Shown piece after piece: positions 330 to 34,570 of a DNA stretch of 62,980 nt. Source of the DNA: a virus; IMG/VR virus record IMGVR_UViG_3300025030_000105, positions 1 through 62,980 of that record, one strand, 5' to 3'. Under the pieces are notes generated by a model. The model saw nothing but the letters and a program-made list of their open reading frames with translations, made no database searches and was not told the origin of the DNA. How positions within the stretch are numbered: the stretch's first letter is position 1; every line of letters starts with the position of its first letter. The position numbers and the translations under genes were made by a program.

Positions 330-356
330 TTGACAATCAGGTATCAATGCTATACT
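330..356 (+). promoter_or_regulatory. sigma-70-like promoter P1
   Basis: A -35 box TTGACA (330-335) is followed after 15 bp by TATACT (351-356), preceded by TG one base upstream (348-349), which makes it an extended -10 site and compensates for the short spacer. The element CAATCAGGT inside it recurs at the promoters near 10618 and 18372. It would drive the accessory genes from 413 onward. Confidence 0.75.
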
Positions 357-412
357 ATGTAATTAAGAGAGTGAGTTAATTGATTAACAACCAAACTGAG
401 AGGGGTGACAAC

Positions 413-2758: not shown

Positions 2759-3424
2759 ATGAACTTACCAAAAAGCAAACTCACAAAGAGCCAAAAAATA
2801 ACCATGTCAAAAGTCAAGGGCAATGAGAAACTTGTCGTAACTATCCGACATGATGATGAGTGCGGCAACGGGCACAACTCATTTTCGGTTACCGGGACAC
2901 TGTTTGAAAAACTGAATAACGGCCAGTGGAGAGACTATAGTTGTGGAATGCTCCACGACGAGGTTGCAAGATTTTTCCCGGAACTTATACCCTATCTCAA
3001 ATGGCACTTGTGTAGTACCGATGGGCCGATGCACTATATAGCCAACACAATGTACCACGCGAACGACAAGGATTGTCACGGACTGCGGAAAGAGGAAATC
3101 AAGCAAATAAAGAATGGCAAGACCGGCCTACCCTGCTGGAAACTTAAAGTAGTGGACGATAAAGGAAACGAAGTATCTCGCCGAAATATCGAAGAATATG
3201 CGGACGCTGAAGAATGCCCTACTGTAGCTTATAAGTATGAATACAGACCGTTCTGCCGGATTGGAGAAGGAAAAACTCCGGACCTTGAAGCAGCTCGGTC
3301 GTGCGCCGTGTGGCCTGACGCTACTTTGGAACAACTCCAAGACAAAGGGGCTTTACTTGCTCGTCTGCCTGGCCTGATGGAGGAATTTAAAACAGCGGTT
3401 GAAAGCCTAGGACTTGTATACTAA
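2759..3424 (+). CDS. conserved phage/plasmid protein of unknown function
   Basis: A 221-residue protein preceded by AAGGAGAAAG. The segments DDECGNGHNSFSVTGTLFE (about residues 31-49) and LKWHLCSTDGPMHYIANT (about 81-98) belong to a hypothetical protein common in phages and plasmids of Proteobacteria. I know of no assigned function. It closes the accessory block and is followed at once by a strong terminator. Confidence 0.75.
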   Translation: MNLPKSKLTKSQKITMSKVKGNEKLVVTIRHDDECGNGHNSFSVTGTLFEKLNNGQWRDYSCGMLHDEVARFFPELIPYLKWHLCSTDGPMHYIANTMYHANDKDCHGLRKEEIKQIKNGKTGLPCWKLKVVDDKGNEVSRRNIEEYADAEECPTVAYKYEYRPFCRIGEGKTPDLEAARSCAVWPDATLEQLQDKGALLARLPGLMEEFKTAVESLGLVY

Positions 3425-3436
3425 TGTTACACACCG

Positions 3437-3471
3437 AAGGGCGGAGAGCATCCCGCCCTTGTATCTTTTTT
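3437..3471 (+). terminator. rho-independent terminator
   Basis: A GC-rich stem AAGGGCGG/CCGCCCTT (3437-3444 with 3453-3460), an 8-nt loop and a T tract (3465-3471) close the accessory operon and isolate the downstream control region. Confidence 0.88.
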
Positions 3472-3480
3472 GTTACACTA

Positions 3481-3500
3481 AATGTATCTAGTGATACATT
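3481..3500. promoter_or_regulatory. palindromic operator-like site
   Basis: Perfect 8-bp arms AATGTATC and GATACATT are separated by 4 bp. The TATC-N4-GATA core recurs at 3844-3859 and, partly degenerate, at 3561-3572, which suggests a dimeric regulator site. Confidence 0.6.
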
Positions 3501-3530
3501 CACAGAGAGCCAAAACCTTTAGTGTGGTAG

Positions 3531-3544
3531 TAACAGAAAGATAC
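3531..3544 (+). repeat. direct repeat TAACAGAAAGATAC, copy 1
   Basis: This 14-mer is repeated exactly at 3661-3674; both copies continue into AxTCCGA or ACCGA-like sequence. Each carries the GATAC half-site found in the nearby palindromes, which fits an iteron. Confidence 0.6.
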
Positions 3545-3660
3545 ACCGAACAAGGTAAAATATCTCCTGATACCAAGGAAATGTCAGGGGAGCCATACAC
3601 GATTGTTGCGGTGCAACAAAGTTGATTTTGCTCGGATGGAGAGAAAAACCCTATGCGATG

Positions 3661-3674
3661 TAACAGAAAGATAC
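3661..3674 (+). repeat. direct repeat TAACAGAAAGATAC, copy 2
   Basis: Second exact copy of the 14-mer seen at 3531-3544, 130 bp away in the same orientation, again carrying the GATAC half-site. Confidence 0.6.
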
Positions 3675-3698
3675 TCCGATCCAGGAGGCGCGGCCGAA

Positions 3699-3782
3699 AT
3701 GCCTAACAAGTCGGTCGGCGACTTTTTACGCGAAAAACGAGAAAAACCGAAAAATGAGGTATCAAAAAGATACACAGCTTAA
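3699..3782 (+). CDS. possible 27-residue peptide, truncated HTH-like
   Basis: A short ORF preceded by AGGAGG ten bases upstream. Its beginning, VGDFLREKREK, resembles the first helix of Xre/RodZ-type helix-turn-helix proteins, but it stops before a complete domain. It overlaps the GTATC-N5-GATAC site at 3759-3773. It may be a leader peptide, a remnant of a regulator, or chance. Confidence 0.3.
   Translation: MPNKSVGDFLREKREKPKNEVSKRYTA
3759..3773. promoter_or_regulatory. GTATC-N5-GATAC inverted pair
   Basis: Five-bp arms GTATC and GATAC flank AAAAA. The spacing is one base longer than in the 3481 and 3844 sites, so it may be a weaker site for the same regulator. Confidence 0.5.
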
Positions 3783-3843
3783 GGCTTCGCTTAAATGCGA
3801 TTTTGAAATCATTGAACATTTTTTCGTGTTTTTGTCAGGTTGA

Positions 3844-3859
3844 GGTATCAGGTGATACC
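3844..3859. promoter_or_regulatory. palindromic operator-like site
   Basis: GGTATCA-GG-TGATACC, a perfect 7-bp inverted repeat with a 2-bp centre, contains the same GTATC-N4-GATAC core as the 3481 site. Confidence 0.6.
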
Positions 3860-3933
3860 GACTGAAGGGGGTGGCGGAAACGGACCGGCTGCGTAAGTCC
3901 ACCAAATGATTGAATAACCACTACTGGAATTGC

Positions 3934-3975
3934 TATTATATATATATTTGTATATATAGAGAGATAGATATATAA
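3934..3975. other. AT-rich tract, possible unwinding element
   Basis: Nearly pure A/T sequence with alternating TA steps lies directly against the left arm of the long inverted repeat. Such a tract melts easily and would suit an origin unwinding element or a cruciform-prone site. Confidence 0.6.
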
Positions 3976-4075
3976 GAAATCAGAACAGCGTGGGAAATGT
4001 CCGATTGCTCGCTGGAGTACCTCAGCAACCACAAAATCTAGCTAATAAGACATTTCCCACGCTGTTCTGATTTCT
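3975..4075. repeat. perfect 27-bp inverted repeat with 47-nt loop
   Basis: Left arm 3975-4001 and right arm 4049-4075 are exact reverse complements over 27 bp. The 47-nt loop can itself form a smaller hairpin around GCTGG-AGTAC-CTCAGC with one mismatch. There is no T tract after the right arm, so this is not an ordinary terminator. It could extrude as a cruciform, act as an origin structure, or encode a stable hairpin RNA. Confidence 0.9.
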
Positions 4076-4192
4076 ATAGTTGCCCCTACTCTTCAAAAAA
4101 CCCGCTTTTTACAACTATCACTATATCGTGTCAGCATTAAGGAGTGTAATCAGGTACTTACCGAGAATCAGCACCACATGATACTTTTCCGC

Positions 4193-4220
4193 TTGACTTT
4201 GCCCCTGGATTTAGTATAAT
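4193..4220 (+). promoter_or_regulatory. sigma-70-like promoter P2
   Basis: TTGACT (4193-4198), a 16-bp spacer and a perfect TATAAT (4215-4220) lie 30 bp before the first gene of the next operon. The related element TAATCAGGTA lies about 40 bp upstream (4147-4156). Confidence 0.85.
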
Positions 4221-4250
4221 TAAGACATACCAACACTAGAGGAATAAAGA

Positions 4251-4439
4251 ATGAGAGACGGATACTTGAAGAGAGACCAAAACGAAATGCGAACCGCAAA
4301 GCGGATTTATTGGCGCTCCTGCTGGCGCACAGTAAACGCTGAGGGGCACGATCTAGTTCAGCCATGGTCGTGGACGAAGGGCGAGGCGAGGAAGACCGCC
4401 GTGGCTTGCAGCATAAAAATTCTGGGAGAGCTAAAGTGA
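4251..4439 (+). CDS. small basic protein of unknown function
   Basis: A 62-residue protein that begins behind AGAGGAATAAAGA, the first gene after promoter P2. It is rich in Arg, Lys and Trp and has no recognised motif. Its stop overlaps the next start as GTGA. Confidence 0.65.
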   Translation: MRDGYLKRDQNEMRTAKRIYWRSCWRTVNAEGHDLVQPWSWTKGEARKTAVACSIKILGELK

Positions 4440-4981
4440 AAACAGGCTTGCGAGGGAAAATCGGGCGGACGACAATAGGAGGAGTGAGTTACTGGCACGC
4501 CTACACTCCTGAGGGGCGAGAGATGTTGTCCGCAACAAGGGACGAACTATTACTGAAGTGCGCCCTTGAAGGAATGCTTAGAAAAGCAAAACCCGGCATG
4601 ACTGGGAAAGAGCTTAAGTACATCCGACAACGGCTGAATAGGACCATCGCCGCGATAGCCGCAGAACATGCCAAGTCGCCTAGAATGTGGGAGGATATGG
4701 AAGCCGGGAGACGCGATATCCCAGACGACCTGGAGCTTGATATCCGCTTGGCCGCAGAGGAGGCCCAAATCGCTCCATACGGGATTGTTGAGCCTGTGGT
4801 CACTCCAAGGCATCTGAGAGTGTATCGTCGCACTAAGGGGCTAAATCAGGCTGAATTTGCCGCATTACTCGGCGTAGCCTTAAAGACGCTCGCCCGATGG
4901 GAATCCGGAGGAAGAAAGATTCCTCCGTACGTATTATACGCGCTACGAAAATTAAATAAGGAGGAAAACCATGAACTGTAA
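4436..4981 (+). CDS. Xre-family helix-turn-helix regulator
   Basis: A 181-residue protein starting at GTG 4436, coupled by GTGA overlap and preceded by GGGAGAG. The C-terminal part (about residues 122-178) is a helix-turn-helix: LRVYRRTKGLNQAEFAALL, then LARWESGGRKIPPYV. The N-terminal half is basic and of unknown fold. The HTH closely resembles those at 6094 and 7415. Position behind P2 and downstream of the palindrome cluster makes it a candidate for the protein that binds those sites. Confidence 0.8.
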   Translation: MKTGLRGKIGRTTIGGVSYWHAYTPEGREMLSATRDELLLKCALEGMLRKAKPGMTGKELKYIRQRLNRTIAAIAAEHAKSPRMWEDMEAGRRDIPDDLELDIRLAAEEAQIAPYGIVEPVVTPRHLRVYRRTKGLNQAEFAALLGVALKTLARWESGGRKIPPYVLYALRKLNKEENHEL

Positions 4982-10752: not shown

Positions 10753-10829
10753 CTGCGCGTAGCTCAGTCTGGTAGAGTACCTGGCTTGGACCCAGGGAGT
10801 CGCGTGTTCGAATCACGCCACGCAGACCA
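10753..10829 (+). tRNA. tRNA-Pro (anticodon UGG)
   Basis: A full 77-nt cloverleaf: acceptor CTGCGCG/CACGCAG, D arm GCTC/GAGT, anticodon arm CCTGG-CTTGGAC-CCAGG with TGG at 10787-10789, T arm GCGTG-TTCGAAT-CACGC, discriminator A and an encoded CCA. The sixth acceptor pair is a C-A mismatch (position 6 with 67), which may be tolerated or repaired by editing. It is transcribed with rtcB, which starts 24 bp downstream. It could supply CCA decoding or replace a host tRNA cut by a nuclease. Confidence 0.93.
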
Positions 10830-10853
10830 TTAAAATTACATAAGGAGAGCAAC

Positions 10854-12047
10854 ATGAAACAGATCATTGCTACCGACCGAGTACCTATTAAGTTGTGGCT
10901 TACTGACATCGAAGCAGGGGCACTTGCGCAGGCTAGAAACCTCGCAAACCTTCCATTCGTCTTCAAGCACATTGCTATTATGCCGGACGCTCACCAAGGC
11001 TACGGGATGCCCATAGGTGGCGTAATGGCGACCCAAGACGTCGTCGTTCCGAACGCTGTTGGCGTGGATATTGGTTGCGGAATGTGCGCCGTGAGGACCT
11101 CGCTCACTGATCTTGATCAAGAGGCGCTGCGTCGGATTATGGGAGGGTCGAATGAGTGTAAAGGAGGTATTAGGGGCAAGGTTCCTGTAGGGTTCGGGCA
11201 TCACTCAAAGAGGCAAAGCGAGGGTATTATGCCTGATATAGATTTCATGACTGACGACCTGCCTATCGTAAAACGAGAATATTTTTCCGCGCTGAAACAG
11301 ATAGGAACTCTTGGTGGCGGTAATCATTTCATTGAGATCCAAAAAGGTAGTGACGGTTTTATCTGGGTAATGATTCACTCCGGCAGCCGCAATATCGGCT
11401 ACCAGGTCGCGAAGTACTACAACAATCTGGCGATTTCGCTGAACGAGAAATGGCACTGCGCAGTACCCGCAACTTGGCAGCTTGCGTTCTTTCCTCTTGA
11501 CTCTGCTGAAGGTCAGAGCTACCTCACCGAGATGCAATACTGTGTAGACTTCGCCCTTGCAAGTCGGGAACTCATGATGAGCAACACACTCCTCAGCATT
11601 TCTGAAGTTGTTGGGGAACAGTTTTCATGCGACGACCCGATTAACATCGCGCATAACTACGCAGCTATGGAGCACCACTTTGGCAAGAATGTAATGATCC
11701 ATCGCAAGGGAGCGACGAAGGCAATGACCGGTCAGTTAGGGATTATTCCTGGAAGCCAAGGCACAGCCAGTTATATCGTGAAGGGAAAGGGCAATGCTGA
11801 GAGCTTCTTTTCATGCTCCCACGGAGCAGGGCGCCGAATGGGTCGAGGGCAGGCGCAGCGGGAGTTGTCACTCGACGGCGAGAAAGAAAAACTTGACACC
11901 ATTGGAGTAATTCACAGCGTTCGGAATACCTCCGATCTTGACGAAGCGCCAGGAGCGTACAAGGATATTTCAGAAGTGATGAAGAACCAAGAGGACCTGG
12001 TCGAGGTAGTTGTCGAGCTTCGTCCGTTGGCGGTTATTAAGGGCTGA
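10854..12047 (+). CDS. rtcB: RNA-splicing ligase RtcB
   Basis: A 397-residue Mn/GTP-dependent RNA ligase that joins 2',3'-cyclic phosphate or 3'-phosphate ends to 5'-OH ends. All family motifs are present: MPDAHQGYGMPIGG, GVDIGCGM (metal-binding Asp and Cys), GTLGGGNHFIE, HSGSRN, HNYA, HRKGAT and SCSHGAGR with the guanylated His323. The length is normal, so the enzyme looks active. It is preceded by AAGGAGAGCAAC and by tRNA-Pro under P3. In bacteria RtcB repairs tRNA and 16S rRNA cut by toxins; in a phage it likely counters host anticodon or ribosome nucleases. See the GGQ protein at 62278. Confidence 0.96.
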   Translation: MKQIIATDRVPIKLWLTDIEAGALAQARNLANLPFVFKHIAIMPDAHQGYGMPIGGVMATQDVVVPNAVGVDIGCGMCAVRTSLTDLDQEALRRIMGGSNECKGGIRGKVPVGFGHHSKRQSEGIMPDIDFMTDDLPIVKREYFSALKQIGTLGGGNHFIEIQKGSDGFIWVMIHSGSRNIGYQVAKYYNNLAISLNEKWHCAVPATWQLAFFPLDSAEGQSYLTEMQYCVDFALASRELMMSNTLLSISEVVGEQFSCDDPINIAHNYAAMEHHFGKNVMIHRKGATKAMTGQLGIIPGSQGTASYIVKGKGNAESFFSCSHGAGRRMGRGQAQRELSLDGEKEKLDTIGVIHSVRNTSDLDEAPGAYKDISEVMKNQEDLVEVVVELRPLAVIKG

Positions 12048-14002: not shown

Positions 14003-14244
14003 CCATAATCCCAATGCCGAGAGGCATAAAAATCTACAACGCCAGTACAGAACCCTGCGACACAGCGGTGGGACCTTGCTGCTGTGGAGCCTGGCATGAC
14101 CTAAGTGATATGCCTGAAGAAGTGCGAAAAGCACTTGCTTGTGCCGCCTGCGGCCAGCCGGCCACGCCGGACGACGGCCTCTGCACCGAGTGCGCGGAGA
14201 AACTTGACAAGCTGGCTTGTTCATTCGAGGGGAGGGAAGGATGA
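13999..14244 (+). CDS. small zinc-ribbon protein
   Basis: An 81-residue protein with CCCGAWH, CAACGQ and CTEC pairs, which form a probable zinc ribbon near the C-terminus. It lies between the exonuclease and the radical-SAM gene with ATGA overlaps on both sides. The function is unknown. Confidence 0.65.
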   Translation: MTIIPMPRGIKIYNASTEPCDTAVGPCCCGAWHDLSDMPEEVRKALACAACGQPATPDDGLCTECAEKLDKLACSFEGREG

Positions 14245-15173
14245 GAAATTCATTATATTGGGACGACTTCACCAGGAGGGCGGAAGAGACAATTGCTCAT
14301 GTAAAGGCAGGTACTGCGCCACCTGTCCGACGAGCCGCGGTCTTCGTTACGGATCGTTGCAACTTTAAGTGTGCGTATTGTAATCACTGTGTTACCGGCA
14401 GTACAATGTCGCAGGAGATGTTCGAGCACATACTTGCTAAGTACGGAGATTCTGCTATAATTCACATCACAGGCGGCGAGCCCTCAGTAGTGCCTTGGCT
14501 GTACCCATTCCTGCGAGAACAAGGGCACCGATATCGTTTTCACTTGAACACAAATGCATTCATCGTGCCTCCAGCGGAGGCGGTGCAGCGATTGAAGGTA
14601 TCGCTTGATTCTAACGATGCTAAGTATTGGAATTGTTTAGTTGGGCGGGATAATGCTTTCGCTATCGTCCTCAATAATCTCAAAAGGGCTTCTGAGAAAA
14701 CTGTAGCGTCAGTTACATACACTGTGACGCGAGAGAATTTCAATAACGCTGTAGCTTTTGCGAAGTTCATTTTTACTGAGGCGCCAAACTTGTACGCTGT
14801 CTTCTTCTCCATTTACAAAGGGACCGACGCAAGGTACTCTATGCAGCAGAACGATGTGGATGTATTCTTCGGCGAAACTATCCCTCATCTGTATGAAATT
14901 CTCCCTGATGAATCGGCAGCGCTACTCCGCGAGACGGTAGATGAGAAGCGTCGGCTTATACAAGGTGTGAGATTTGAGCAGGCCGCTGGTCCATGCTACC
15001 TATCGATGTCCGAACGGGTGTTTTCTCCAACCGGAGAAGAGTTCACATGCTCTCACTTATATCGCGACAAGATCTACATGACCGCGCCAGTAAAATGCGA
15101 CCGGTGCAAATACGGGTGTAACCAGAGGTTGGTGCAGTTCAATGATCTCGTTGCCAGGAGGTTGAGAAGATGA
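14241..15173 (+). CDS. radical SAM enzyme with SPASM-like C-terminus
   Basis: A 310-residue enzyme with the CxxxCxxC cluster CNFKCAYC (Cys40, Cys44, Cys47) that binds the 4Fe-4S cluster for S-adenosylmethionine cleavage. TGGEPS follows as the SAM-binding GGEP motif. The C-terminal 60 residues hold GPCYL, FTCSHL and CDRCKYGC, which resemble an auxiliary SPASM/Twitch cluster. The start at 14241 follows AGGGGAGGGAAGG with an ATGA overlap. The substrate cannot be inferred: peptide, tRNA or DNA-base modification are all possible. It is unusual among phage replication genes. Confidence 0.88.
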   Translation: MRNSLYWDDFTRRAEETIAHVKAGTAPPVRRAAVFVTDRCNFKCAYCNHCVTGSTMSQEMFEHILAKYGDSAIIHITGGEPSVVPWLYPFLREQGHRYRFHLNTNAFIVPPAEAVQRLKVSLDSNDAKYWNCLVGRDNAFAIVLNNLKRASEKTVASVTYTVTRENFNNAVAFAKFIFTEAPNLYAVFFSIYKGTDARYSMQQNDVDVFFGETIPHLYEILPDESAALLRETVDEKRRLIQGVRFEQAAGPCYLSMSERVFSPTGEEFTCSHLYRDKIYMTAPVKCDRCKYGCNQRLVQFNDLVARRLRR

Positions 15174-27192: not shown

Positions 27193-27278
27193 GGGACATG
27201 ATAATCCTGGCAGTGGCGGCAATAGCTTGCTTCGCGGTACCTCTCGTCATGTGGGGGGTTGTATTTTACTCCCCCTGA
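27189..27278 (+). CDS. 29-residue membrane peptide
   Basis: A short ORF behind AAGGAGGAGGGCAG with an ATGA overlap. It is one hydrophobic span (MIILAVAAIACFAVPLVMWGVVF). It is the last plus-strand gene and overlaps the 3' end of the convergent minus-strand gene by 13 bp. The role is unknown. Confidence 0.6.
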   Translation: MRDMIILAVAAIACFAVPLVMWGVVFYSP

Positions 27279-30200
27279 TAAACCGGCACACCAAATTGCG
27301 AAGCCACCTGTCTTTGTCTTAGACCAGTAGTTCCAACCTCGCCGAGAACCAGCCGCCTGACGGCTGGCCGTAAGTCGCTCCCGTTGATCGCAAATAACGG
27401 GAGCTTTGCATTGAAGACGGCTATCGCCGACATCGGCCCCTCAGTATCTTCGCTCTCAACGATCGCCTTGGCAGCATTGCGGATGAGTCGGCCTCTCCGT
27501 TCGGAGAGCTGAGTCCCCAGCTTATTTAAGCTGCGCTCGGCGCCCTGCGCTTTCGCTACCTCGTCAGGCTGGAAGCCGAGGCCGATCATCAAGATCTCAT
27601 CCGGGCCTATGGCCTCGTCGGAAAGGATCTTTTTCCCAGCCCCGGTCTTCAGACCGTCGGATGCAACGCGGATAGCCTTCAGCCCGTCCTTCAGCGGCTT
27701 GGGCAGGGCCTCTTCGAGTCCTCGCATGAAGTTCCCTTTGTTCACCATCTGGTCGTAGCCTTTGACCCACGACTGCGCAACGGAGAAGCTCGGGCCAATG
27801 AGGTTGCCGGCGTACCACGCAGCAAGCTGCGCTCCGTGCATGTTCTCAGGAGGTTCAGAGGAAACGCCGTACAGGTCGCCCATGCCGATACGCTTCGAGG
27901 CGTTTACGCCGACTGCGGTAGGAAGTCCATAGGAAATGATTCCTCCGAAGAGATCCCCCGCCTGCTCGTTGACCCACTTATCGAACTCCATCTCCGCGTC
28001 GTAAGGTTCGTCGTCATCGCCGCCAAAGAGGTTGGCAAGGCCGAAGACAATGCCTCCGATGATCGTACCATGTACGCCGGCCAGGGCGGCAGACATCGTG
28101 GTTACTCCGAGGAACTCCTTGAAGGCTTCCTTCTTTGTCTTCGCGTCTTCCCCTTTCAGAGATTGCATCAGCAAGATACCCATCCTGAGAGCAGTCTTTA
28201 TTCTGTACGTCTGGAACGTTGTCAGAGTCCTGACGGTATCGCCTTGCATGAACCAGCCCTTGTCGGACTTGGCGTAGTTGTAGAGCGTTCCGCCGACGAT
28301 CTCCGAGGAGTCCTCCAAAGCGGAGAAGAAATCCTTCTTCGCGTCCGTCGCCAGTTTGTAACTGGCAAGCACTGTCGCTTTACGACTCCCTAATTCTCCG
28401 TGCTGCATGGGCAGCATCGCGTAGCGCAGGATCTTACCTACGGCGGTAGTCTGTTTCCCTTGAGCGATATCGCTCGCCTCGTGGACGGCGGAGATATCAA
28501 GGTCGCCCTTGGCGAGAGACTCCCGGAGGGCAAGGAGTTCTCGCTTGTAGTCACCGGCTTTGCCTGTGCCTAGCCCCTTAATCTTCTGCAGCTTCTCAGC
28601 TGGCGAGAAGAAGTCCTCTCCGAGTTGCCGGTCGCCGACCCTGTTCTTTTCAGTAACCTTCAGGTGCAGGTCTGCGTATACTCGGTTTACATCAGCGTCG
28701 CCGTACATGGCCTCTTTACTATACTTCTTGTTGAAGGCTTTCCGAAGGCCCTCTGAGAGGGCGGCGGTCGCCTTCGGCAACGACGCGAACTTCCTTGCGA
28801 GTGCAGGGAGGGTGAGCACCGGCAACTGGGTCAACTGGACCAGGAAAGTCGATGGGGAGGTCATGTAGTAGGCCGTGCTGAACTTGCCGAGAGTCGAGGC
28901 AATCGGACTGACTCGCTCATTCTTCACGGCTTGGAACCACCTGCGTGCGTCGTTGACGAGGTGGGTTCTCATGTCCATGTTAATGGGGCCTTCTCTATCG
29001 GCGATTTTGTCTTTGTTCTCCTGTTCAAACCCTTGAATGTCTTCCTCAATCTTCCTGCCGTACTCCATCCACGCGATAGAGCCAGCGTGCCTCAGGACGT
29101 AGTCCATAGAGCTGCGGAGCATGTCGGTGCTGGCTCCGAGAACGTTCTTCCTATGAATGGAGTTTTTCAATGCGGAGGTCTCCGGCATCCACCGGAGGAT
29201 GACCTGGTTCAGGTCGGAGAAAGCGTCGGCTGCTCGGGCTTGCGCTTCGTTCACCGCGCCCGCATCTTCCAGATCAACGCCGGTCAGGTACTTTGCCTCA
29301 AGGGCCTTGCCGAGCTGCTCTCGCAGAGCCTGCGGGATAACGGCTTCGCCCTTCTGTGTCTCTCTCTTCACGTCCTCGACGAAGGTGTCGGGGTCCACTC
29401 CCTGGGCTTCCATCTGCTTTCTGAAGACGCGGCGTTCTCCAGGGGAGGTAAAGAACTCAGTCTGCTCCCGACCATCTTGTGTCGTGAACTTCAGGATATA
29501 CTCGCCATACCGCGACAGCGGTACATAGATGCCTCTCAGCTTGCCGAACGTAGCGTTGAACCGGGTCAGCAGTTGTTCGCGGAGCGTTGGGTTGCCTTCG
29601 GACGAAGCCTCAATTACTGCGAGGAGATTATTTCTCTCCCGCTCCCGGATGGACGCCAGATAGTCGACAATCTTTTTCGCCTGCTCCTGCTCAACCGGTT
29701 TTAACCGGTCCCACGCTGCGCGGGTCTCCGCGTATGCTTCGGCGAAGGTCTTGCCGGTCGACTTCTTCATTCCTTCATCTTTCCAAGCCTTCTCGGTATT
29801 GCTCCGCTGGAGCCCTGCCGGCCCCGACTTATCAAACCAGTCTTGCTCAGTCTCGTCGAGCCAGGGGGTCATCTGATTGAAGGTCCCAGTGAGGAGGAGA
29901 TTGTTGAACGCTTCCAGCCCAGAGTTTTTCTTCGCGACAGCTTCCGCATCTTGGTAGATGGCGTAGAAATCATCTGGAAGCTGCGCTTTGATGGCCTCCA
30001 TTTTCTTGTTGTGGGTGTCGATGTCTTTCAGCCAGTGGATCTTCTTGCCGAGAGTTTGGGCGAGGTGTGACCTAGGAGTTACTGCCAGCCACTGCTTGGC
30101 GTACTTGACGTAGATATCACGGAGCCTACTCTTCGGATCCTGCACTGCGTCGAGGATTTGGTCGATCTTCGCCTGCCCTTCTTTCATTTTGTTGGAGACT

Positions 30201-33200
30201 ACGGAGAACAGTTGCTCGGGCTGATCCAGCCTTGCAAGTATCTTGCTCAGGTCTCCAGTAGGAGCCTGATCCTCAGTCCTGCGAGACCAAGCCTTCGTAC
30301 CTTGTGCGAACAACGCAACGAGGTCAGATTCAGAGAGCCTGCCGTGGGCGATGCCGAGTCGGTAGAGAGCGGCCTTGACGGCTGAGATTATTCGCTTGAA
30401 GATGGAGTGTTTCCTATTCGCAGGGTCTTGGAGGAAATACATTAATCCTTCTTCCCCTCGGAACCCTTTCGCCGTATCGGCAGGCACCTTAGCAAACGCG
30501 GCCTTGATCGCGGGATTATTCTTGGCGAGAATGGCGAAGTCCTTCAGAATCGCAGATCGCTTGGCGCGGAAGACTTTGTCTTCGTTGAGTAGGGCATGGC
30601 CGGCTTCGTGCCGCATTACATCGACTGCGTCGCCGGGCTTGAGGTTGTCGGAGAAAAGAAAAACTTTTTTCTGGCTGGGGAAGTAAGAGCCGGCTATTTC
30701 CCCGTTCTTGGAAAAGATAGCAGTGATTTGAATATCTTCGTCATTGAAAATGACGTAGTTGTATGTTCCCCCACCCTGTGCATCACTCACTGCCTTGAGG
30801 AGTGCAGGCGACGGGTCATACCCAGAAAGTTTGCCGCTCAGAGCCGCACTGATCGCTTGGGCTGGGTAATCATAGCCGAGCCAGTCGTCAGCTACTAGAG
30901 CTTTAAGGATTGCTTCGTTCTTCGGTGAAAATGTGCCGGTGCCGATAAGCTCTTCGACTTCAACGAGATCAGCGTCTTCTGGGAGTTCTTTCAGGAACTC
31001 CGTTTTGATATCTTTTAGCGGACGATTCCTGCTCGTGCCGTCTAGGTATTTTATACCGCGGATGCCTGCAGCGTGCAAGAAACTGCTTGCTTCAGCATCC
31101 GTCCCGAGTATCTTGGATAGGTCCCTATAGAAATACGACCCGTTGAAATTGCTTTTGTTTTTGTCAAGGAAATCGGCAAACTCAACCATCTTGGAATAGG
31201 TGGGGTTCGCATCAGAGTACCGTCTGTTCGCTTCCAGCTTGAAACGATTTACGATGTTATTCTTCTGGTCGCTCAGCGGTTTATCCCATAGTAAATACTC
31301 GTCCTCGGCAGGGGCTAGTTCTACTTGGTAGAGTTTGCCTTTACTATAAACTTTCTGTGCTGCCGCTCGCACCTTATTGTACAACTCTCGTCCAACTGTC
31401 TCGATGTAAAACCCGTCGTGTCCTGCTAGAGTCTTAGCAAGTAACCCTTGAAGCGCAAACGATTTATCCTCTCCCCACCCGCCTTCCGCCGTCATCTTGT
31501 CCCACACCTCGGCAGTAAGTCCTGGTTCTTTTGCTTCGAATAAAGATGCGTCGATATACTTAGGGCTGGCAGACAACTTGTCTTTGTACCACCCAGCAAC
31601 CTCTCTCGACCCGGCAAAATATAAACCATACCCGTAAGCCTGCGCGCCTTCGCCGGTGCCGATCTTCGACGAAGAGAATTTATCGACATCATGCGGAGTC
31701 CCATGCCATGCTACCATCTTCAGGAACGCTTTTTGCATCTGCCGAGGCAGTTCGTTCGCGTTCCGCACAACTTCGAGTTTCCCTCGTTTCACAAGGTTGT
31801 CATAGCCCTTGCCGAGGAAAGATTTCAGATCCTTCTGCACCTGGGCAACGAAGGTGCTGCCGCCTGCACTTCGCGCTTGCGCCTGCAGATGCCCTGAGAC
31901 CTCAGTACTCGCCAACTGCGCTGCGATAGACAACGCCTCACTGAACGCTGTAGTGTGCTCCGCATCGATACCGAGGACCTGCATGACTTTCTCGACGAGG
32001 GCGTCCCACGCACTGCGGAGTTTCCCACCGGTCTTAATTTGTGTGCTTTTAAGTACCCCTTGGAATTGGGCCGAGGAGAACGCCTGGGCCAGGAACTCCT
32101 GCTCGTTGAGGAGCCCGTAGCCGATCTGCTCCATGCCAGACAACTCTCCGGCGAGGAACTTGTTCTTGAAGGTCTTGCTGCCGCCGGCGATCTCAATGTT
32201 CGAGATCGTGTCCTTTGAGATAAGCCCTAGCTTGGTGACTTGAGTCTTTACCTGGGCCATGACCTCTTTCACCCGCTTCTGCATATCAGGCCTGATTTTT
32301 AGTTCCCTCACAGTCACGGAGTGGACCAGCTCGTGGAGAGAGGTTGGTGCGTTCTTCAGGTCCTTGACCGTGATCTCATTCTTGCCAGGGAGGTAGCCCG
32401 CAGTTTTCGCCACCGGGTCAACCTTGACCGCTGACTCAAGTTTCGAGCCTGGGGTGAACGACTTAAGGAAGCCCCCGAGCTTCTTGACGTTTTCGTCCGG
32501 AGATTGTTCGAGCGTAGCAAACAGGTCGCCTGTGGTGATTGTCTGCTTTGTCGCCGTCTCGGAGAGTGTATCGAGAGCTTCGAAAGAAGCTCCGGTAGGA
32601 GCTACTGCTCCCCTGTCGTCAGATAATTGAACACCCTCTTGCACAGGAGCAGCCATACTCCCTGCGGGGACTTTAGGTACTGGTGCAGGGGCTTGATCCC
32701 CAGTGAGGGCTCCACCAGGAGGTAGTACTTCGTCCGGGACTGAGAACTCATCGTTTACTCCTTGCGCAACTTCCGCGCTTTGTCCCGCAGTGCCTGCAGG
32801 TGCTCCGAGATTTCCCGTTGACGGGCCAAGAACTCCCTCTCCTGTTTGGAGAGTATCTGCACCGGCCATCTGAGCCGGATCTTGTTGAAGATCAGCATCT
32901 TCCCTCCTTAGGTCCTCCTGGACCTGCAATCGATCAAAAGCTACGCGTCGCTTGCGGACATCGGCTTCGTCCTGCACTGCTTGCGCAGAGTCTGCCAGAT
33001 CGTAAAGAATGTCGTTCGTTTCAGAGCCTGTTTCTTCGGTTGCCCTTCTGGCCTTGAGTTCACCCTCAGCAACTTGGTTCCTGAACGACGTAGCCTTGTT
33101 CTCGGTAAACCAATTCAATTTCTCCGCAGGCGTCATCCCGGCGGTCTCCGCCTGAACGTCCTGAATTGTTTTCCCTGCAGGCGGCAGATAACTCCACACC

Positions 33201-34570
33201 TCCTCGCCGATAGCGAGGTTCGTCGACGTAGGGGCCGACGGCCTCATCGGCAATTCTTCAACTACCGGCTTCGCCTCTTTCTCAGCGAGGACTTCTTCGA
33301 GGTTGCCTGCCGCTACTGCGGCGGCTGCATCGCTTACAGCGATGTCTACCGTGCGGTCTCCGACCGTGACGGTCGCTACGCCGTCTTCGACTTTGTCGAT
33401 CTTCACCTCTTCAGGTGTAACTTGGTTCAGCGTTTCCGCTTGAACTGTGTTCGTCACCGGGTCGGCCTGTTCCTCCCGAATGACGTTCGCAACTCTTCGG
33501 ATAGGGAGACCTGCGGCGATGTCTTCTTTCGCCCCAACCAGCCACTGATCAGCATCCGGTACCTTATTTGCTACAGCCTGCTTGTGGAGTTCATCTACGA
33601 CGGCTTGTCGTTGCTCCGGCGTTGCCGACGTAGGATCTTCGATTATGGTGTTTACGGCTTTTGCGCTTCTCGCATTGCTGTAGTTCACATGAAGTCCGAA
33701 TGGAGCAAGGAACGCAGTCATGCCGAGGGTAGGACCGACGACGGCTTTCATTTGTTCAAGCGGAGAGACATCAACGCCCGCTTCTCGTTCTACGCTTGCC
33801 TGCAGCCCAGCCTGGCCGATCTCGGTTCCTACTTCGCCGATGGCGGTATTCACAAGCCCCTTGGCGAACGGCTTCCAGACTGCAGTATCCGTCGCCGCCT
33901 TAATCGTACCGGCTACGGTCGGCGCTGCGGCTTTGCCGAGAGCTTTCCCTGCTATGCCTACGAACTTGCCTCCAACGAAAGTGCCTGCAGCTTCGCCTGC
34001 ACCCTCAATAAATAGGTTCTTCCAGCCTGCGGCTCTGGCTACTTCGTCCGAAGCACCTGCGCCCTTGACAGACTCTAAGGTTTGTTGACCTTGCTGCATA
34101 GCGGCGGGGACAGAGCCGAGAACCGACGAGATACCAAGCCCTACAGCCCCACCTACGGCGAGTTCCGGAGCGGCGGCACCGAGAGCGGCGAGACCCCCGC
34201 CTACGATGAGCGGGGCGGCTATGGATGGGGCGAGCATCTGCCCACCTTCGGCGAGAGCGTTAACTACCGCACCGTGTTCGCCAGGGCGAAGTTTGTTCTC
34301 TGGTAGCTCCTGTCTAGTCTTGGCGGCGTCGGCGATGGACTTCCCTGCGTCGTATACGCCCTGTCTGAAACCTCCACCAGTAGGCTCTCCGAGCCACTGC
34401 ATGGCCTGACCGGCTTGAAGAGGGATCCCCTCAGTTACGCCGGTACGGAGCCCGGTGCCGATCTCTCCGAGTGCGGTGCGAGGTTTCTGCCGGATGCCTC
34501 CGGTTGGGGCCAATAAAGCATCAAATGTGCTGCCCCCAGAAGAGGCAAGAAGGTCGTCGAACTCAGCCAT
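27266..34570 (-). CDS. giant polyvalent virion protein: ADP-ribosyltransferase-like domain and two HExxH zincin sites
   Basis: A 2434-residue protein, the last of the late operon. The N-terminus repeats FDDLLASSGG and FDALLAPTGG, followed by a Gly/Ala-rich hydrophobic region (about 110-235). A first zincin-like site, TSLHELVHSV, lies near residue 746. An ADP-ribosyltransferase-like domain of the polyvalent type, WHGTPHDVDKF with YGYGLYFAG, starts near 955. A second zincin-like site, VMRHEAGHALL, lies near 1321. The C-terminal part has a hydrophobic Gly-rich segment near 2170 and matches large polyvalent phage proteins. Such proteins are packed in the virion and injected with the DNA; they are thought to modify or protect against host factors. 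The start overlaps the previous stop as TAATG. Confidence 0.88.
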   Translation of the reverse strand: MAEFDDLLASSGGSTFDALLAPTGGIRQKPRTALGEIGTGLRTGVTEGIPLQAGQAMQWLGEPTGGGFRQGVYDAGKSIADAAKTRQELPENKLRPGEHGAVVNALAEGGQMLAPSIAAPLIVGGGLAALGAAAPELAVGGAVGLGISSVLGSVPAAMQQGQQTLESVKGAGASDEVARAAGWKNLFIEGAGEAAGTFVGGKFVGIAGKALGKAAAPTVAGTIKAATDTAVWKPFAKGLVNTAIGEVGTEIGQAGLQASVEREAGVDVSPLEQMKAVVGPTLGMTAFLAPFGLHVNYSNARSAKAVNTIIEDPTSATPEQRQAVVDELHKQAVANKVPDADQWLVGAKEDIAAGLPIRRVANVIREEQADPVTNTVQAETLNQVTPEEVKIDKVEDGVATVTVGDRTVDIAVSDAAAAVAAGNLEEVLAEKEAKPVVEELPMRPSAPTSTNLAIGEEVWSYLPPAGKTIQDVQAETAGMTPAEKLNWFTENKATSFRNQVAEGELKARRATEETGSETNDILYDLADSAQAVQDEADVRKRRVAFDRLQVQEDLRREDADLQQDPAQMAGADTLQTGEGVLGPSTGNLGAPAGTAGQSAEVAQGVNDEFSVPDEVLPPGGALTGDQAPAPVPKVPAGSMAAPVQEGVQLSDDRGAVAPTGASFEALDTLSETATKQTITTGDLFATLEQSPDENVKKLGGFLKSFTPGSKLESAVKVDPVAKTAGYLPGKNEITVKDLKNAPTSLHELVHSVTVRELKIRPDMQKRVKEVMAQVKTQVTKLGLISKDTISNIEIAGGSKTFKNKFLAGELSGMEQIGYGLLNEQEFLAQAFSSAQFQGVLKSTQIKTGGKLRSAWDALVEKVMQVLGIDAEHTTAFSEALSIAAQLASTEVSGHLQAQARSAGGSTFVAQVQKDLKSFLGKGYDNLVKRGKLEVVRNANELPRQMQKAFLKMVAWHGTPHDVDKFSSSKIGTGEGAQAYGYGLYFAGSREVAGWYKDKLSASPKYIDASLFEAKEPGLTAEVWDKMTAEGGWGEDKSFALQGLLAKTLAGHDGFYIETVGRELYNKVRAAAQKVYSKGKLYQVELAPAEDEYLLWDKPLSDQKNNIVNRFKLEANRRYSDANPTYSKMVEFADFLDKNKSNFNGSYFYRDLSKILGTDAEASSFLHAAGIRGIKYLDGTSRNRPLKDIKTEFLKELPEDADLVEVEELIGTGTFSPKNEAILKALVADDWLGYDYPAQAISAALSGKLSGYDPSPALLKAVSDAQGGGTYNYVIFNDEDIQITAIFSKNGEIAGSYFPSQKKVFLFSDNLKPGDAVDVMRHEAGHALLNEDKVFRAKRSAILKDFAILAKNNPAIKAAFAKVPADTAKGFRGEEGLMYFLQDPANRKHSIFKRIISAVKAALYRLGIAHGRLSESDLVALFAQGTKAWSRRTEDQAPTGDLSKILARLDQPEQLFSVVSNKMKEGQAKIDQILDAVQDPKSRLRDIYVKYAKQWLAVTPRSHLAQTLGKKIHWLKDIDTHNKKMEAIKAQLPDDFYAIYQDAEAVAKKNSGLEAFNNLLLTGTFNQMTPWLDETEQDWFDKSGPAGLQRSNTEKAWKDEGMKKSTGKTFAEAYAETRAAWDRLKPVEQEQAKKIVDYLASIRERERNNLLAVIEASSEGNPTLREQLLTRFNATFGKLRGIYVPLSRYGEYILKFTTQDGREQTEFFTSPGERRVFRKQMEAQGVDPDTFVEDVKRETQKGEAVIPQALREQLGKALEAKYLTGVDLEDAGAVNEAQARAADAFSDLNQVILRWMPETSALKNSIHRKNVLGASTDMLRSSMDYVLRHAGSIAWMEYGRKIEEDIQGFEQENKDKIADREGPINMDMRTHLVNDARRWFQAVKNERVSPIASTLGKFSTAYYMTSPSTFLVQLTQLPVLTLPALARKFASLPKATAALSEGLRKAFNKKYSKEAMYGDADVNRVYADLHLKVTEKNRVGDRQLGEDFFSPAEKLQKIKGLGTGKAGDYKRELLALRESLAKGDLDISAVHEASDIAQGKQTTAVGKILRYAMLPMQHGELGSRKATVLASYKLATDAKKDFFSALEDSSEIVGGTLYNYAKSDKGWFMQGDTVRTLTTFQTYRIKTALRMGILLMQSLKGEDAKTKKEAFKEFLGVTTMSAALAGVHGTIIGGIVFGLANLFGGDDDEPYDAEMEFDKWVNEQAGDLFGGIISYGLPTAVGVNASKRIGMGDLYGVSSEPPENMHGAQLAAWYAGNLIGPSFSVAQSWVKGYDQMVNKGNFMRGLEEALPKPLKDGLKAIRVASDGLKTGAGKKILSDEAIGPDEILMIGLGFQPDEVAKAQGAERSLNKLGTQLSERRGRLIRNAAKAIVESEDTEGPMSAIAVFNAKLPLFAINGSDLRPAVRRLVLGEVGTTGLRQRQVASQFGVPVYQGE

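Follow-up and report, generated by a model that had tools for sequence, protein, structure and literature searches.

What does the one large gap in the early region of this phage do, and which protein reads it? The window analysed here, 62,980 bases long, is an entire IMG/VR virus record. Its plus strand, from about 0.4 to 27 kb, carries the early genes (DNA polymerase A, RtcB, exonucleases, an SNF2-type helicase and a DUF927 primase-helicase), and the rest of the genome holds mostly minus-strand genes, including those for head and packaging, with the large terminase gene at 52-53 kb. The map is circular or circularly permuted, since the relative L004 aligns across both window ends; positions 1-165 hold about 20 tandem copies of the 8-mer GCAGGAGC, either a repeat or an assembly artefact at the map junction. 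Elsewhere, a tRNA-Pro directly followed by the RtcB RNA ligase gene (10753-12047) and a radical SAM protein downstream (14217-15173) form a possible tRNA repair module, and a minus-strand ORF of 2434 aa spans 27266-34570.

Anatomy of the gap and its conservation

The early region has a single large gap, at 3425-4250. When ORFs of at least 80 aa are counted, the largest ORF-free stretch in the window is 939 nt, while at 60 aa some of the gap is taken up by two antisense ORFs, 63 and 65 aa long, and the term gene-poor, by which it had been described in a sequence-only reading, thus depends on the cut-off. The elements named in that reading (palindromes, an A/T tract, a 27-bp repeat, a promoter and an HTH gene) are all present where it placed them (Table 1).

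Table 1. Features in and around the gap, in window coordinates
Feature	Position	Strand	Remark
Early promoter TTGACA-17-TACTAT, palindrome GTATCAATGCTATAC (341-355) between hexamers	330..358	+	
Terminator-like hairpin AAGGGCGG...CCGCCCTT, then GTATCTTTTTT	3437..3460	+	closes upstream gene 2759-3424, bounds the region
Palindrome GTATCTAGTGATAC	3484..3497	.	GTATC-N4-GATAC, exact
Palindrome-like GTAACAGAAAGATAC	3530..3544	.	GTATC-N5-GATAC, 1 mismatch
Palindrome-like ATATCTCCTGATAC	3560..3573	.	GTATC-N4-GATAC, 1 mismatch
Second exact copy of the 15-mer GTAACAGAAAGATAC	3660..3674	.	GTATC-N5-GATAC, 1 mismatch
Palindrome GTATCAAAAAGATAC	3759..3773	.	GTATC-N5-GATAC, exact
T-rich element TTGAAATCATTGAACATTTTTTCGTGTTTTTGTCAG	3803..3838	+	conserved in alignments
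Palindrome GTATCAGGTGATAC	3845..3858	.	GTATC-N4-GATAC, exact
Weak promoter-like TTGAAT-18-TATTAT, reading into inverted repeat	3910..3939	+	9/12, TG before it
Least stable 60-bp duplex of the contig (candidate unwinding element)	3927..3986	.	contains A/T tract 3935-3974
IR-B left arm, putative two-part site, core GCGTGGGAAATGTC	3975..4001	+	
Spacer between IR-B arms, 47 nt	4002..4048	.	
IR-B right arm, perfect reverse complement	4049..4075	-	
Promoter of the HTH operon, sigma-70-like, TTGACT-16-TATAAT	4193..4220	+	11/12 consensus positions
62-aa ORF	4251..4439	+	first gene after promoter 4193-4220; L004 homolog 77%
Double-HTH protein, 181 aa, GTG start, proposed arm reader	4436..4981	+	

Relatives were sought with a 221-aa protein, its downstream neighbours, the HTH alignment and the polymerase. 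In all, seven related lineages (12 contigs) and the window make eight lineages with the region, known from metagenome contigs only: clade I (the window, L004 and L018), clade II (L016, L012 and the L009 group of L009, L010, L025, L026 and L028) and clade III (L015 and L020, with L021 alike). The counts omit L003 and L014, which come without the upstream region, and L005, L013, L019, L022-L024 and L027, which lie on the same contigs as loci used. The polymerase of L018 is 94% identical to that of the window, that of L004 95-96% and those of clades II and III 72-79% where covered. The polymerase gene is split by about 0.95 kb after residue 377 in L003/L014 (L014 5453-6410) and, at a different place, by about 0.87 kb after residue 478 in L016 (7680-8554); the interruptions are likely introns or inteins with a homing gene. 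The cultured relatives gave no DNA match, with primase identities of 28% to Pseudomonas phage Rollin and 24% to Rhizobium phages, and the HTH protein gave one weak match (E 7e-3) among cultured phages. The early genes are mosaic, with 41-100% identity among relatives. The order of the parts is constant in all eight lineages: palindromes or half-sites, A/T tract, IR-B, a TTGAC-type promoter and the double-HTH gene. The distant 221-aa homologs in L009, L010 and L012 have no gap directly behind that gene, and there the corresponding region adjoins the HTH gene instead; in L011 neither gap nor repeat was found behind the 221-aa homolog.

The borders of the region are also shared within clade I, as the terminator-like hairpin has a counterpart at the equivalent place in L004 and L018 and the promoter of the HTH operon is conserved in both. 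Clade II has a different hairpin (AAAACATGCAG), a promoter of other sequence, and a similar T-rich TTTTGGTGTTTTACTG in the same order, whose equivalence to the T-rich element of the window is judged by eye. The HTH gene had been placed directly behind the TATAAT promoter; the promoter holds, and the first gene is the 62-aa ORF, which the HTH gene overlaps. NCBIfam and PADLOC gave no match for this ORF. It and residues 1-50 of the clade I HTH protein are both YW-rich, a kinship seen by eye only. In L016 a homolog of the ORF is located elsewhere, at about 595-783, and a degenerate arm-like site with 3 mismatches lies at 517-534 of its contig G007, in the probable promoter of that homolog.

Six GTATC/GTAAC...GATAC palindromes lie inside the gap. 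The looser form GTWWC-N4/5-GWWAC occurs 5 times in 3425-4250 against a mean of 0.022, and none of 2000 dinucleotide-preserving shuffles reached 5, which bears out the clustering that had been noticed; for the N4 form alone in the whole window the excess is weaker (5 matches, reached by 3 of 100 shuffles). Every member of clade I keeps these sites despite differing HTH domains, and strict-form palindromes are absent from clade III. The early promoter of the window has such a palindrome between its hexamers, and the early promoter of L004 (2249-2277) has an identical layout but a different sequence, again with a palindrome between -35 and -10, where it is likely a repressor operator in both phages. 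Since such sites occupy the early promoters (window 330, L004 2249), the palindromes look separate from the arms and are probably the operators of another, conserved regulator.

Beside them lies the weakest duplex of the phage: the 60-bp stretch at 3927 has the lowest stability across all 62,980 bases (z -4.9). The 40-bp tract within it had been described as alternating A/T; it is present, A/T-rich but not strictly alternating, as it contains GAGAGATAG. Measured over 60 bp, duplex stability is lowest at this tract in the window and in each of 10 relative loci; over 100 bp it is lowest there in the window and in 8 of the 10.

Arms, words and the double-HTH protein

The perfect 27-bp inverted repeat is confirmed, with a loop of 47 nt and folding z-scores of -9.3 as RNA and -9.5 as DNA. 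A background scan of 77 loci of DNA-polymerase relatives (909,592 bases), with a comparable stem defined by a score of at least 15 and a loop of at least 12, gave one such stem, in L048 on the same contig as L018. Comparison among the lineages suggests that each arm of IR-B is a two-part site, composed of an outer word, a spacer and an inner word, and not primarily a hairpin. In clades II and III the arms show, from outside to inside, a variable outer word, a spacer that is often unpaired and a constant inner word: CGCAC-N4-ATGTTACA in L012, CTACAC-N6-GTTACA in L015, TCGGAA-N3-GATGTTACA in L020, GGTCCG-N6-GATACA in L009 and TACCAC-N5-GTTACA in L016. The starts of the two words are about 11-12 bp apart, that is one helical turn. 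In clade I the arm pairs along its full length; window and L004 differ at 1 base, which is changed on both arms (in L004 on all four), while the L018 arm TTATTGGTTTGTGTAA is unrelated to that of the window. A cruciform as the primary function, as had been proposed, is thus unsupported, because the arms of L012, L015, L020 and the L009 group fail to pair across the spacer between the words, as expected of facing protein sites.

Three of the eight lineages (L004, L016 and the L009 group) have a further repeat, IR-A, across the A/T tract from IR-B; none was found in the remaining five, L015 showing isolated outer words only. In any single phage the words are common to both arms, or to all four where IR-A is present, and the loops between arms measure about 30 to 47 without helical phasing. 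Whole-contig scans find the words at 2 places in the window, both in the region, with one more at 3 mismatches; at 4 places in L004, in the region only; at 4 places in each of the five contigs of the L009 group; at 4 places in G007, plus 2 at 3 mismatches; and at 2 places each in G008, G009 and G010. Apart from the places with 3 mismatches, all these lie in the region. For L012 and L015 the scan covered their region.

Outside these lineages, the bacterial genome collection yielded neither the paired-arm pattern nor relatives of the HTH protein. The exact core has three single coding-region matches in viral contigs, which we take as chance. Pseudomonas phage Rollin and RHph_TM3_14A, scanned for the repeats, have no matching pair, only differently built ones, and two further scans of viral sequence for A/T-tract patterns added no lineage to the set, L124 and L126 appearing unrelated.

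The candidate reader is the product of 4436-4981, which has an N-terminal beta/alpha domain, HTH1 (57-109) and HTH2 (124-180), with a mean pLDDT of 82 in the AlphaFold2 model; the N-terminal extension of clade I (residues 1-50) is predicted as three strands and a helix. Domain searches gave HTH-type families only, without a RepA_N domain: the Pfam matches of the protein are HTH_31, HTH_3 and Aca2_YdiL, the last above cut-off in the window member (24.9 bits vs 23.8) over positions 10-59 of 118. At E 0.001, HTH2 matches Aca2_YdiL in 10 of 11 members, and it matches MqsA_antitoxin in 9 of 11; its nearest solved structures by Foldseek are Aca2 (best E 2e-3), and PHROGs labels similar domains transcriptional repressors. 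An Aca2/YdiL regulator has a single HTH plus a dimer domain and belongs to an acr-aca operon; the present protein has two HTH domains, and among the HTH-gene neighbours scanned no PADLOC or NCBIfam partner was recognised.

The recognition stretch of HTH2 is nearly constant in clades II and III, like their inner word, and that of HTH1 differs in every lineage, like the outer word. We compared the arms with their surroundings in 9 pairs of loci and used partial Mantel tests over 8 lineages, omitting L021 (like L020) and L028 (like L025). Where the HTH1 stretch is kept, the outer arms agree at 30/30 positions in L009/L010 (surroundings 88%) and in L009/L025 (86%), and at 28/30 in the window and L004 against 68%, a surroundings figure lowered by the IR-A stretch present only in L004. 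Where it differs, the outer arms agree at only 11/30 positions in L015/L020 against 77% of the surroundings (p 4e-6), and at 5/30 in the window and L018 against 62% (p 1e-6); HTH1 also differs in L009/L012 and L016/L012, with the arm effect in the worse direction but weaker. Two of the nine pairs, L009/L016 and L009/L026, have no significant arm effect. In the Mantel tests, over eight lineages with shared ancestry, the outer arm follows HTH1 (r 0.36, p 0.05) and not HTH2 (p 0.77), while the inner arm, within the same limits, follows HTH2 (r 0.40, p 0.02) and not HTH1 (p 0.74). The inner arm tracks the remainder of the protein even better (r 0.88), and part of the co-variation is shared ancestry. 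The co-variation is statistically modest because there are only eight lineages; it is suggestive, not proof, that the outer word tracks HTH1 and the inner word HTH2. We are fairly confident that the double-HTH protein is the reader of the arms, independently of what the reading is for. The primase-helicase, which had been suggested as a binder, is rejected as the reader, because it stays 95% identical between the window and L018, whose words differ completely.

Origin, operator or structured RNA

As regards function, the most likely reading, to which we give an even chance, is that 3425-4250 is a replication origin with a swappable initiator/site pair. Two features of origins are found here, clustered binding-site-like repeats in a non-coding region and an adjoining A/T stretch that is easily melted. 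From the computed anatomy, conservation, word uniqueness and co-variation with the recognition helices, we infer the arm binding, the A/T opening, the helicase loading and the origin function itself, as follows. The double-HTH protein would bind both arms of IR-B, and IR-A in some relatives, with HTH1 recognising the outer word and HTH2 the inner one, at a distance of about one helical turn; sitting beside the weakest duplex, the protein would open the A/T tract and assist in loading the DUF927 primase-helicase of the phage. The GTATC/GTAAC palindromes, as operators of a second conserved regulator, would tie the region to early transcription. Calling the region an origin or master control region had the right direction, given its conserved non-coding sequence, weakest duplex, clustered palindromes and adjacent initiator-like gene, while a primary cruciform is not supported, the primase-helicase as binder is disfavoured and lysis control finds no support. 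The GC skew, proposed as a check, shows no switch at 3.4-4.2 kb: it keeps a positive sign before and after the region, all the way from 0 to 27 kb, and its cumulative minimum lies at the contig ends, following gene direction. Such a switch is not required of every origin and is confounded here by gene direction. The origin reading is weakened by the Aca2/MqsA regulator type of HTH2, and also because IR-A is in only three of eight lineages and the loops lack helical phasing; a swap of the HTH protein is not unusual by itself, because the early genes are generally mosaic.

Transcription control is a serious though less likely alternative. Here an Aca2/MqsA-like double-HTH autoregulator or early switch would bind IR-B (and IR-A), ahead of the promoter of its own gene, and act through looping or upstream activation, making the region a regulatory leader and not an origin. 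The matches of HTH2 to the Aca2_YdiL and MqsA families and to Aca2 structures, the repressor labels of PHROGs and the double-HTH gene directly downstream of the sites all agree with this, as does the rapid repressor/operator turnover familiar from phage immunity regions. However, about 118 bp separate the end of IR-B from the -35 hexamer downstream (4075 to 4193), which puts the repeat outside the promoter, and no other place has the sites, the early promoter included. An operator would not require an A/T minimum and a T-rich element to be conserved across 0.7-0.9 kb, and no integrase or other lysogeny gene appears among the 30 proteins scanned with PHROGs (many small ORFs being outside the scan).

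It is unlikely that the region acts through a structured RNA, for which the promoter at 3910-3939 would transcribe the inverted repeat and the 27-bp stem would be a primer, an attenuator or an RNA target of the HTH protein. The window has a very stable stem (z -10.7), each of the 9 sequences compared has a folding energy lower than the mean of its shuffles (z -3.2 to -11.3), the promoter-like TTGAAT-18-TATTAT has a TG before it, and one stem pair differs between the window and L004 with the change on both sides. But folding is expected of any inverted repeat and does not need identical words in two separate repeats of one phage; moreover, the spacer positions are unpaired in L012, L015, L020 and the L009 group, Rfam gave no match (in the window only a tRNA), and the promoter pair is not recognisable by eye in clade II. 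Still less probable is a packaging, partition or invertible element, in which the inverted repeat would be a pac/cos site, a MITE, or a parS-like or recombinase site. All of these can contain inverted repeats around a short spacer, yet the large terminase gene is far off, no recombinase or Par protein is recognised, the spacer orientation is identical in the window and L004, and the arms change in place within conserved flanks without dispersed copies. A retron msd, MITE, invertible switch and telomere/cos site were likewise rejected, no reverse transcriptase, transposase, recombinase or dispersed copies being recognised.

Returning to the origin reading, we suggest, tentatively and with considerable doubt, a lock-and-key origin cassette in phages without recognised lysogeny genes, in which a two-headed HTH initiator would have heads changeable singly and the initiator/site pair would outpace the other replication machinery. 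Such fast turnover would perhaps be an escape from parasites, satellites or co-infecting kin that know the old word. If true, closely related phages carry mutually exclusive origins with a code legible from sequence, two helices for two words, and offer a natural set of matched and mismatched initiator/site pairs for testing phage origin divergence, the way co-infecting phages or satellites distinguish each other's DNA, and the start of replication by an HTH protein that lacks a helicase. If instead the operator explanation is true, what the data spell out is an operator code of two words, used by a double-HTH regulator.

Comparison with known systems

The replicon of PLE, a Vibrio cholerae phage satellite, with its RepA_N initiator and ori, is similar in several respects. 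In the cited text, the initiator DNA-binding domain co-varies with an intergenic origin, which has inverted sub-repeats, and cognate pairs are required (PMC8263062); the initiator, in the text cited for it, is not predicted to have a helicase or primase (PMC7145576), as in the scheme proposed here. Unlike in PLE, the putative reader here has a double XRE-type HTH and not RepA_N, the two-part arms lie beside an A/T tract, and the region belongs to a 63-kb phage, where the origin role is our proposal from sequence. In the Rep/ori of SaPI, sets of repeats border or surround an A/T-rich stretch, their specificity fits the initiator, and Rep itself carries helicase activity, whereas the primase-helicase of the present phage is a protein of its own, conserved and not varying with the sites. 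Phage immunity repressor/operator modules show rapid paired turnover of protein and site in otherwise similar phages; here the sites are confined to one non-coding region and absent from the early promoter, and no lysogeny gene is recognised. Proteins of the Aca2/YdiL/MqsA type, whose sequence superfamily includes HTH2 (Pfam, Foldseek), bind inverted repeats; in the present case there are two HTH domains per chain, the sites lie about 118-196 bp upstream of the promoter, and no anti-CRISPR or toxin partner is recognised in the operon. Our searches of open-licence papers returned none on this locus or on a separately changing two-part arm with a two-headed HTH. The parts are of known kinds, and the variant would be their combination in a two-part arm read by a two-headed HTH protein, with halves that appear to change separately.
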